Under the pieces are notes generated by a model, which saw nothing but the letters and a program-made list of their open reading frames with translations, had not been told where the DNA came from and made no database searches. The position numbers and the translations under genes are program-made. From positions 310,001 through 374,000 of the forward strand of contig NZ_JAAWVT010000002.1 in assembly GCF_012271785.1 (NCBI RefSeq): 64,000 nucleotides of DNA, read 5' to 3'. Below, in pieces: positions 3,493 through 58,877 of the stretch (positions are counted from its first letter, which is position 1; each line of letters begins with the position of its first letter). The DNA is from Paeniglutamicibacter terrestris. Lineage in GTDB: Bacteria; Actinomycetota; Actinomycetes; Actinomycetales; Micrococcaceae.

Positions 3493-4962
<1,470 letters not shown>

Positions 4963-55922: not shown

Positions 55923-56230
55923 GCATCCAAGTCTGCACCAACCCGGGTCACCGAAGCGAAATTGTGCCGATGCGGGCTGGCGGTGCGCTCGCCGGCGGCG
56001 AGAACATGCAGCAGGGCACCCCTTATTGGTGCGGCGGCGGTTTCCAGAATGTCAGGCACAGAAAAATGCGTCAGTGCTCACTCACGCATTGCGTAAGAGG
56101 TTGCGCAAGGGGTTGAGCCGGAGGTTGAACGACAGAGGGCAATACGCGCCGTGGATGGGTGGCGGATGCGCGGTGAGGTAGAAGTTGGCGGAGCCCGCTG
56201 GCTGAGCGCAGAAGCCTAGAAACGCTGGCG
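55923..56230. other. Intergenic stretch, nothing recognised
   Basis: About 300 bases upstream of the ABM gene and beyond the terminator of the metallopeptidase gene. Only short, Arg-rich frames are present and none is supported. Confidence 0.4.
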
Positions 56231-56300
56231 CAAAAAAGGGAGGGCCCGATCCGGGATGATCCTGCGGTGGTGGTTTCCATCGCTCCGGAGCGGGCTCTCA
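56231..56300 (-). terminator. Terminator of the metallopeptidase cassette
   Basis: On the minus strand GAGAGCCCG (56300-56292) pairs with CGGGCCCTC (56249-56241), a G-T pair and an inner GGAGCGATGG region aside, and is followed by CCTTTTTTGCG. Confidence 0.6.
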
Positions 56301-56357
56301 GCTGGGTATCAGGTGTGTTGTCGGGGGGGCAGGTAAGACGCAGGCAACCTGCTGTGG

Positions 56358-58268
56358 CTAGCTAACGCCGAGTTGGAACCAGCCGGCCCAACCGGTTCTC
56401 CCGTCCCACCAGGTGCTGTAGGCCTTGGAATCGGAGCCAACAGCAAAAACATCAAGGTGCTCGGTGATGCGCGAGATGGCGGTGACCGTGCTGCCCGGGG
56501 CGCCAATGCCACCGCTGACGTTAAACCATCCGGCCCATCCGCCAGGATCATGCCACCACGTGCTGTAGATGCGGTTATCGGTGCCTACGGTGAACAGATC
56601 CAGCTGATTCGAGTACCTAGACACGGCGGTAACTTGAGATCCGGGTGAGGCGAGACCGCCGGAGACCTGGAACCAGCTGCCCCAACCGCCGAGCGCATTC
56701 CACCACGTGCTCACGATTTTTTGGTCCGACGCCACGGTGAACAGATCCAGCTGGTCCCGATGGCGAGCCACCACATTCACTGTCGAGTCGCTGCGTGCGA
56801 GCTGAGACCCGATCCGGAACCAGGAGGACCAACCGCTGCGTTCATCCCACCAGCAGCTCCAGATGCGATTGTCGGTGCCCACCGTGAAGAGGTCCAAATG
56901 GAAGGGGTACCGGGCGATCGCCGTGACGGTGGCCCCGGCTGCAGCAATACCGCCGGAGACATGGAACCATGTGGACCAGCCGCCGGCCGCATCCCACCAA
57001 CAGGACATGATCCGGCCATCGGCGGCCGTGGTAAACACATCCAGGTGTCCGCTCAGGCGTGAGACCACGTTCACGGTGGAGCCGGGCCGCGCGATTAGTC
57101 CGCCGGCCAAGACGAACCAGCTGGACCATCCACCCGACGCGTCCCACCAGGCCGAATAGATGCGATTGTCGGTGCCAACGGTGAAAAGGTCCAGATGACG
57201 GGCGTAGCGGGAAACCGCGGTGATGGGGGAGCCGGGTCCACCCGGGGACGCGATGCCACCGGAAATCTGGAACCAGCCGCTCCATCCGGTGGAGGCATCC
57301 CACCAGTCGGTGACGGTGCGTCCATCGGAACCAGCAGTAAAGACGTCAAGATGCTCGGGGTACCGAGCCACGACGCTGATGGGTGTGCGAGCACGGGCCG
57401 TGAGTGTGGTCAGCGGACCAATGCGGTTGATGATCACCTGAGCGCAGATCCGGCAAAACGGAACCGAAAGGTTGCGCATCTTGCAGTCGTACTCGGGGCG
57501 GTAGGCCCCGCAGTGGTAGTAGTGCGCTCCTTCGAATGTTCCCACGGTGCCGTTGGGCACGGTGCTGGCCCTTGAGTCCACGGCCGCACAATTGGGATTG
57601 GCCATGGTGGGCAACGCGGTGCTCGCGGCGACGGCCCAGCCCCATTTGAGCGTCGCACGATTGGTGTTGATGGTGACGTTGGGTTCCCCGGGTTCGGAGG
57701 CCGGGTGGTGGTCGTGCCCGGTCTCGGCGCCGCCGGCGTAGTAGGGATATTCATCGGCCAGGCCAAAGGCGGTATGCCCCGCCTCGTGAATGCCGATTTC
57801 CGAGGCGCCCGAGGCCAGCGAGAAGGTGCCCACCGAGCCGCCGGATCCGCCGTAGATGGTGGAATTGACCACCAGTATCGCCAAAGTGAATTGTGGGACC
57901 TGGGCCGCGGCGACGGAAAGCACCGTGCTGGTATTGCAGATCAGGAGCCGACGGATGCCGTTGCCGCCGAAGCTGGCATCAAAGTAGGTGCGGGCGCTTG
58001 CCCCGGTGCCACCTCCGGAGACCGGATCATCCGCCCCGGTGTCGGTGGAGGAGACATGAACGCGGAAAACGTTGATGGCGCTGGCCAGATCGCTAAACGG
58101 TGCCGTTCCCAGCAATGCGGTGACGAACGCGGTGCAGGCCGTGTTGAAGGCCCCCTGTTGGCCAGTTTGGAATCCGTCACCCAGCAGCACCACGTTGAAG
58201 GCCCTATTTGCCGGTGCTGAGCCACTGATCTGGGTCGTTCCAATGATGGTGCCGTCGGCGGTACTCAT
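56358..58268 (-). CDS. M64-type metallopeptidase with seven C-terminal propeller-like repeats, no signal peptide
   Basis: A 636-residue two-part protein. Residues 1-290 match peptidase family M64 (IgA-peptidase-like): NVVLLGDGFQ near the start, the zinc motif HEAGHTAFGLADEY at 161-174 and a Cys-rich end YHCGAYRPEYDCKM / FCRICAQ. Residues about 298-636 are seven repeats of about 48 residues with the pattern HLDVFTVGTDNRIYSTWW-x6-GWSSWF-x-VSGG, as in seven-bladed PLL-type lectin propellers. The N-terminus MSTADGTIIGTTQISG has no signal peptide. The start overlaps the stop of the 152-residue upstream gene, its probable partner. Confidence 0.85.
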   Translation of the reverse strand: MSTADGTIIGTTQISGSAPANRAFNVVLLGDGFQTGQQGAFNTACTAFVTALLGTAPFSDLASAINVFRVHVSSTDTGADDPVSGGGTGASARTYFDASFGGNGIRRLLICNTSTVLSVAAAQVPQFTLAILVVNSTIYGGSGGSVGTFSLASGASEIGIHEAGHTAFGLADEYPYYAGGAETGHDHHPASEPGEPNVTINTNRATLKWGWAVAASTALPTMANPNCAAVDSRASTVPNGTVGTFEGAHYYHCGAYRPEYDCKMRNLSVPFCRICAQVIINRIGPLTTLTARARTPISVVARYPEHLDVFTAGSDGRTVTDWWDASTGWSGWFQISGGIASPGGPGSPITAVSRYARHLDLFTVGTDNRIYSAWWDASGGWSSWFVLAGGLIARPGSTVNVVSRLSGHLDVFTTAADGRIMSCWWDAAGGWSTWFHVSGGIAAAGATVTAIARYPFHLDLFTVGTDNRIWSCWWDERSGWSSWFRIGSQLARSDSTVNVVARHRDQLDLFTVASDQKIVSTWWNALGGWGSWFQVSGGLASPGSQVTAVSRYSNQLDLFTVGTDNRIYSTWWHDPGGWAGWFNVSGGIGAPGSTVTAISRITEHLDVFAVGSDSKAYSTWWDGRTGWAGWFQLGVS

Positions 58269-58723
58269 TGTGAATCTCCCTGAGGCTCGAGGGAAAAGAC
58301 GCCAAGGACAGTTTCGGTGGGCTCGATCGGTGCCGGCGGGAGTCCCGGTTCAACCTCGCGCTCCGGCGCTGGGGTGCTCACAGAAAGTAGTGCGACGCTT
58401 GCCGCAGCCGTGGCGGCCGGCACGATCACGGTGAAGGCTCCGCGTGGTGTATCGGGGGTAATGCGGAGGATGGGTTCTCCAGCGGTCTCGGGAAAGACCT
58501 CCAGTGTGCTCTGGAGGGCGCTCACCGGGACGCGGGCGATCTCTCGTTCTGCCGTATCGCGGATGACGGCGAAGTGGCCATTGCGGGATTCAAGAGGTGT
58601 TTCGGCTCCGGTTAATGCCATATCTACCGGTTGTTGGGAGATGAGTCGAACCGCGTCTCCCTCGTATTCGAAGATCAGTCGCATGGCCCCGGTATTGGTG
58701 TCGGGGCCCGGTTCTTGGGGCAT
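58265..58723 (-). CDS. Partner protein of the M64-type metallopeptidase
   Basis: A 152-residue soluble protein, not assigned to a named family. Residues 15-118 look like a beta-sandwich (MRLIFEYEGDAVRLISQQ; LESRNGHFAVIRDTAEREIARV; PRGAFTVIVPAATAAASVALLSV), followed by a Pro/Glu-rich tail. Similar small proteins accompany M64 peptidases elsewhere, to my memory. The stop overlaps the peptidase start by 4 bases, so the two are co-translated. The start is uncertain: ATG 58723 has no strong ribosome binding site, and ATG 58687 is also possible. Confidence 0.7.
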   Translation of the reverse strand: MPQEPGPDTNTGAMRLIFEYEGDAVRLISQQPVDMALTGAETPLESRNGHFAVIRDTAEREIARVPVSALQSTLEVFPETAGEPILRITPDTPRGAFTVIVPAATAAASVALLSVSTPAPEREVEPGLPPAPIEPTETVLGVFSLEPQGDSQ

Positions 58724-58877
58724 GTCATTCACGCTTTCACTGCAGGAAGTCGGCATCCAAGATGGAATGCAGACCGGTGGTGAGCCCAGTACATCCGCCG
58801 TTCTCGGGCGAGTCAATGCTCGTCATGGCCGAGTAACGAGTCGGTAATGCCACGTCATTGCGCGGCGTGTCATGCTC

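Follow-up and report, generated by a model that had tools for sequence, protein, structure and literature searches.

The stretch of DNA analysed here, referred to as the window, comprises 64,000 nucleotides of Paeniglutamicibacter terrestris (contig NZ_JAAWVT010000002.1, positions 310,001 to 374,000). On its minus strand lies a pair of genes, in which a small open reading frame comes first and a larger one second, the two overlapping by four bases. We found that the larger gene encodes an M64 metallopeptidase with no evident leader and with a C-terminal propeller of the PLL type, whereas the smaller one encodes a partner protein for which no library searched gave a significant match. The domain parts themselves are of known kinds. 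What is new is their combination, the mobility of the pair and the unmatched partner, and no published description of the gene pair was found in open-access literature listings. The features of the locus are as follows.

56358..58268, minus strand: M64 metallopeptidase of 636 residues, leaderless and ending in a PLL-type propeller (Pfam, NCBIfam and PDB profile matches)
57426..58229, minus strand: M64 catalytic domain, residues 14-281 (Pfam and PDB match)
57750..57788, minus strand: HEXXHXXXGXXDE zinc motif, residues 161-173 (motif as in PMC12402451)
57444..57485, minus strand: cysteine cluster C262, C272, C275, ordered as in the second zinc site of BF3526 (PMC12402451)
56367..57380, minus strand: seven-bladed PLL-type propeller, residues 297-634 (NCBIfam, PDB and repeat anchors)
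58265..58723, minus strand: partner gene, 152 residues, with a conserved core, a proline-rich linker and a conserved C-terminal F.L tail
58276..58281, minus strand: AGGGAG, Shine-Dalgarno-like, ending 7 nt ahead of the peptidase start codon (direct sequence reading)
55923..58857, unstranded: stretch holding the pair, between the ABM gene and nrtR (in the genus-mates G022, G050 and G210 these genes lie 104-678 nt apart, without the pair)

The peptidase and its propeller

Residues 14-281 of the larger protein match Peptidase_M64 of Pfam (PF09471) with an E-value of 1.8e-37 and 129.6 bits against a cut-off of 26, and in a PDB search residues 21-281 align to 4df9 (E 1.3e-21). The zinc motif HEAGHTAFGLADEY occupies residues 161-174 of the 636. 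A scan for the M64 domain in one genome per species, covering 84,980 species, gave 29 loci, 24 of which showed 71-85% identity over the best segment. These loci together with the window and its relative G111, minus the damaged or cut copies, make up a set of 21 full-length proteins, here called the intact copies. In all 21, H161, E162, H165, D172, E173, C262, C272 and C275 are identical, and G169 is kept in 20. The intact zinc motif and the M64-type cysteine cluster that the first-pass annotation had read from the letters are thus borne out.

The HEXXHXXXGXXD motif is common to the window protein and the M64 family, represented by BF3526 of Bacteroides fragilis, BACOVA_00663 and the ThomasA IgA protease. 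The second zinc site of BF3526 has been described as E323, C398, C409 and C412 (PMC12402451). A glutamate and three cysteines occur in the same order in the window protein, and the last two cysteines are 3 apart in both, whereas the other distances differ. By motif and order, the metal ligands and E162 as the base correspond to both zinc sites of BF3526, the catalytic one and the second one, and peptidase activity is predicted. Unlike these three, the window protein has neither a leader nor an N-terminal beta-sandwich within its own chain; instead it has a C-terminal propeller and a separate partner gene. The M64 peptidases covered in PMC12402451, an IgA protease and BF3526, are gut-bacterial.

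The tail of the protein matches the NCBIfam model beta_propeller_lectin (NF052348) with an E-value of 6.1e-59 and 199.8 bits, just below the cut-off of 200 bits, while the equivalog cut-offs for CV39L and BP39L (350 and 400) are clearly not reached. Residues 297-633 align to the structure of the Photorhabdus lectin PLL2 (6rfz, E 2.2e-23), and there are exactly seven repeat anchors, at residues 306, 358, 408, 457, 506, 555 and 604, with a spacing of 49-52. Profile searches therefore uphold the seven-copy PLL-type tail proposed in the first pass.

PLL lectins have been reported to hold fucosylated and O-methylated sugars between their blades, with two tryptophans stacking on the sugar (PMC12203525; PMC6943638); those in the literature consulted here come from insect-killing Photorhabdus. 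We located the corresponding position in the window protein from the 6rfz alignment and from the tryptophan spacing of 14 in PLL3 (PMC12203525). At the presumed first stacking position, blades 1 to 7 carry V, Y, M, W, V, Y and Y. Across the 21 copies, blades 1, 3 and 5 hold V or M and blades 2, 4, 6 and 7 hold W or Y, the exceptions being one D (blade 6) and one Q (blade 7). In our reading the blades of this propeller alternate, which leaves about four aromatic sites, and glycan binding is putative. The seven W-type repeats are shared with PLL, PLL2, PLL3, PHL, CV39L and BP39L, and the PLLs likewise have no recognised leader; the window propeller differs from these lectins in its fusion to a peptidase and in the alternation between V/M and W/Y at one sugar-site position.

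Pairing, decay and mobility

In the same family, profile searches found the partner in 8 of 295 genomes and PF09471 in the same 8, one of which (G200) has both genes broken. The partner lies directly upstream in all 21 intact copies, either overlapping or within 20 nt; the copy at locus L078 runs off its contig, and its partner is present. These counts support the dedicated partner inferred in the first-pass annotation, and the case named there as a refutation, genomes in which the two genes never occur together, is not what was found. Five copies are damaged: those of G200 (L030, 8547-9689), L068, L079 and L080 are broken, and that of L073 is shortened in the propeller. Among these, the partner is broken in G200 and L068, has no usual start codon in L073, was not found in L080 and is intact in L079.

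The partner evolves faster than the enzyme, with a mean pairwise identity of 0.48 against 0.77 for the M64 domain and 0.74 for the propeller. Its divergence correlates with that of the M64 domain (0.68) and of the propeller (0.64) over 190 pairs from 20 loci, values uncorrected for shared ancestry. No conserved third gene was seen beyond close kin in flanks of mostly up to about 5 kb per side, except for the island shared by three Arthrobacter strains that is described below. We regard the pair as a coupled module.

Outside Actinomycetota, relatives were found in Variovorax sp. J22R24 and in three metagenome bins, two of them Nitrospira and one Acidobacteria. Their M64 domains are 74-77% identical to that of the window and their whole proteins 71-74%, the Acidobacteria copy being cut. 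Both Nitrospira records, the Acidobacteria record and an Acidimicrobiaceae record are metagenome-assembled genomes, for which wrong binning is possible, whereas the Variovorax record is not. In the protein tree the window adjoins G111 and then Arthrobacter MYb227 (100/100), and the Acidimicrobiaceae, Variovorax and Nitrospira copies group together (support 96/95). The non-actinobacterial copies may share one origin; the tree is midpoint-rooted and gives no direction of transfer. In the genus of one Nitrospira carrier, the partner occurs in 1 of 79 genomes.

The site without the pair can be seen in three genus-mates, where nrtR and the ABM gene are separated by 104 nt (G210), 267 nt (G022) and 678 nt (G050, with a partial ABM match) and are followed by the same hydrolase. 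Most other genus-mates have no ABM match within 1.5 kb beside nrtR, and the broken copy of G200 lies about 29 kb from nrtR. Given the relatives in other phyla and the empty site in three genus-mates, we consider the module to be horizontally mobile. Around the pair in the window, Pfam identifies nrtR, a monooxygenase and a hydrolase, and a further flanking gene is, in our own reading, presumably nadA.

The partner protein

Searches of Pfam, NCBIfam, PHROGs, PADLOC and PDB with the partner returned nothing significant, and viral contigs and plasmids gave no match. Of 396 genomes from the phylum, 10 bear M64. Four of these ten M64 proteins (L031, L032, L054, L056) start with an ordinary signal-like stretch, as judged by eye, and directly upstream of them no partner relative was noticed (the upstream side was covered, with a short locus for L031 and L032). 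Six have no signal-like start, and five of the six have a partner gene: upstream in the window genome (G000), G401 and G619, and downstream in G335 and G385, the sixth leaderless case being G411. The partner of G401 was found by profile (E 2.4e-5) and that of G619 was chosen by position; none of 515 decoys reached either score, and one of the two beat all 1288 decoys of a set that contained true M64_N and FG-GAP-type members. Three weak matches to the partner profile were also seen in G400, G296 and G565, genomes without M64.

In BF3526 an N-terminal beta-sandwich adjoins the active site and restricts access to the cleft, and expression of the catalytic domain without it failed (PMC12402451). 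The window peptidase begins directly with its catalytic domain. The partner might be a detached N-terminal domain, a structural counterpart of the beta-sandwich M64_N (PF16217) that serves folding and substrate choice and not inhibition. A profile of M64_N ranks the partners somewhat high, at a median of 3.4% of 841 cleaned decoys, with 1 of 22 above all of them. However, hhalign comparisons, one of them with 28 rows picked by motif from 53 loci, gave a local probability of 0.2-1.9%, which is not significant; M64_N is absent from the families listed for the 22 partners; none of 17 PDB profile matches at E up to 10 is an M64 chain; and in the reverse test the M64_N members score like decoys, with a median fraction of 0.71. 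The idea is attractive, but it is not supported by the sequence, and we consider it unlikely. As the likeliest role of the partner we take that of an inhibitor or chaperone, given the strict pairing, the decay of the partner alongside the enzyme and its fast evolution.

A second group of M64 proteins without an evident leader (judged by eye) was found at seven loci (L050, L051, L081-L085), with a different C-terminal repeat domain, assigned by Pfam to FG-GAP in L051, the sole member scanned. In 7 of 7 of these loci a co-directional open reading frame lies directly downstream; the six that were read fully encode 251-300 residues and share a domain, and two that were scanned matched no Pfam family. 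This group resembles the window pair in having no leader, an M64 domain joined to a repeat domain and a small co-directional partner gene. It is unlike the window in its type of propeller, in its downstream partner with a long N-terminal tail and in its M64 domain, which is 32-35% identical. Aligned by hhalign, the two kinds of partner are colinear over 113-117 columns, at a probability of only 0.5%. With the FG-type profile, 11 of 22 window-type partners score above every one of the 841 cleaned decoys (median rank 0.12%); in reverse, the window-type profile places the FG-type partners at a median of 6.8%, with none of 7 above all. Kinship of the two partner families is moderately supported by these profile comparisons. 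The insert status, the relatives in other phyla and this second leaderless M64 group with its own partner lay beyond the view of the first pass, which had the window alone.

Proposed export and function

The first-pass annotation stated that neither protein has a signal peptide. By hydropathy this holds for both genes at every in-frame start. A leader gained through a corrected start codon had also been considered there; the in-frame extensions to the preceding stop (27 and 33 residues) reach maxima of -0.62 and 0.78 over 15 residues, and no leader was seen in them. Over its first 70 residues the peptidase has a maximum of 1.53 in the same measure, and none of 23 related loci has a hydrophobic peptidase start, the highest value being 0.82.

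The absence of a leader is less surprising than first claimed, because the tails of PLL lectins are not recognised as signal peptides and PLL2 and PLL3 were nevertheless detected in an extracellular fraction (PMC12203525). By analogy, these lectins offer a precedent for leaderless release.

Export by an extracellular contractile injection system (eCIS) would be another route. In Arthrobacter sp. H20 (L151-L153, G696:C18:1-60000), two copies of the cassette, the second damaged, bracket an eCIS locus. Besides the cassette, each copy of the island encodes a regulator-like and a membrane-like protein and an S8 subtilase that has no evident leader. Ten proteins of this region were scanned with Pfam, which identified sheath, cap, tube, gp25, PAAR, CIS_tube, eCIS_core and S8, with no match in two; the type of the regulator and an AAA ATPase are our own presumed assignments.

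Across genomes, the eCIS cap PF14065 was detected in 11 of the 25 that carry the cassette and in 4 of 52 controls, while for the tube PF06841 the counts are 13 of the 25 and 5 of the 52 (Fisher p 9e-5); 13 of the 25 have at least one of the two markers. The 25 leave out the genome of L062, include four with broken copies only, and do not count G401 (both markers) and G619 (neither). The controls were chosen by ourselves, mostly from the same family and not matched by taxon, so that taxon and cassette are confounded; within Micrococcaceae the counts are 3 of 11 for carriers and 1 of 41 for controls (p 0.026), and among genomes labelled as the same family they are 2 of 8 and 1 of 41 (p 0.065).

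These counts, together with the flanking copies in H20, would suit a pair that is eCIS cargo, with the leaderless peptidase loaded into the particle and the partner as loading chaperone or guard. The eCIS literature names peptidases among the associated toxins and beta-propeller lectins in the fibres (PMC8213781, PMC11297309, PMC12923769), and by search listing the term M64 does not occur in these three sources. However, neither PF14065 nor PF06841 is present in the window genome, which is given as 100% complete, or in its nearest carriers G111 and G074. Direct linkage is seen in H20 only; part of the island is also present in Arthrobacter Bz4 and H41, which have neither marker. As a general route, eCIS is ruled out for the window genome on these two markers, unless both were missed. 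In some hosts the protein may travel by eCIS, but as an account of the pair as a whole we judge cargo of this kind to be quite improbable.

Alternatively, the protein might act inside the cell that makes it, for instance as a protease of conflict or cell death that the partner restrains, with a propeller ligand other than a glycan. The missing leader would agree with this, as would the leaderless-looking S8 subtilase and the regulator-like and membrane-like proteins of the H20 island, and the three cysteines, read as zinc ligands and not as disulphides, would suit folding in the cytosol. On the other hand, the nearest solved relatives of the propeller are lectins and the flanks in the window look ordinary; identity as a defence system was rejected, as no PADLOC model for defence matched. 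An intracellular role appears to us very doubtful, slightly more so than eCIS cargo.

Our preferred reading is a mobile two-gene module in which a leaderless M64 metallopeptidase, aimed at glycans, depends on a partner that is translated along with it. We put it forward tentatively, mechanism included, with a confidence that falls a little short of even. The domain make-up, the intact zinc ligands, the lack of a leader by hydropathy, the strict pairing, the coupled decay, the empty site and the relatives in other phyla can be read from the sequences themselves. What the first-pass annotation described is sound, and what it inferred is plausible. According to the proposed mechanism, the partner would bind the nascent peptidase in the cytoplasm and, as a chaperone or inhibitor, keep it folded and shut, comparable to the way in which BF3526 has its active site covered by its N-terminal domain. 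The enzyme would leave the cell without Sec or Tat, either by lysis or by another leaderless path of the kind that PLL lectins must take. Through its propeller it would then be anchored to surface glycans that are fucosylated or O-methylated, and the peptidase would cut proteins beneath them.

Several points weigh against this reading. Export, binding, proteolysis and complex formation are all steps that we infer. Three of the seven blades have no aromatic residue at the position equated with the stacking tryptophan of PLL. The usual guide value for a membrane segment over 19 residues is 1.6, and the best stretch in the window partner reaches 1.99 (residue 97), while that of the peptidase reaches 1.94 at residue 116, within the M64 domain. 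The earlier statement that neither protein has a membrane segment therefore stands only in part. We read the hydrophobic stretch of the partner as a buried strand, since the best values of the other 21 partners, at the same place or elsewhere, are 0.77-1.65, with 19 of the 21 not above 1.6.

Moreover, at three of the four loci from outside Actinomycetota, the reading frame of the partner continues upstream into a signal of lipoprotein type. The three lie in the Nitrospira and Acidobacteria bins (L060 about 4409-4520, L064 about 4409-4520 and L078 about 4407-4520), with hydropathy of 2.5-2.9 over 15 residues. Such a start would place the partner across the membrane from the leaderless peptidase. 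A good Shine-Dalgarno sequence lies ahead of the inner family start in all three; the Variovorax partner has no lipoprotein-like extension, and no other examined partner frame exceeds 1.3.

A further fusion of a propeller with a protease is encoded on a Nocardia plasmid, where the protein P0005 (L088:3998-5539) has PLL-type repeats ahead of a C70 papain-like peptidase. Like the window protein it has no evident leader, and unlike it the peptidase is a cysteine peptidase at the C-terminal end. The same plasmid stretch also holds a Pycsar effector gene.

On a broader view, leaderless propeller-bearing M64 proteins could form widespread mobile effector-partner modules that act on other cells, in two designs, one pairing a PLL propeller with a partner encoded upstream and the other an FG-GAP propeller with a partner encoded downstream. 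In both, a glycan-aimed protease would be delivered by contractile particles or lysis, and a dedicated partner would control the enzyme until release. We regard this generalisation as speculative and on balance unlikely. The pair itself, a mobile unit that joins M64 and PLL domains, with high identity across phyla and a constant small partner, offers a compact and testable candidate for a peptidase that depends on a partner and for export with no leader. Should the partner prove to be an inhibitor or an assembly subunit, a function would be assigned to a protein family that the libraries searched do not match.

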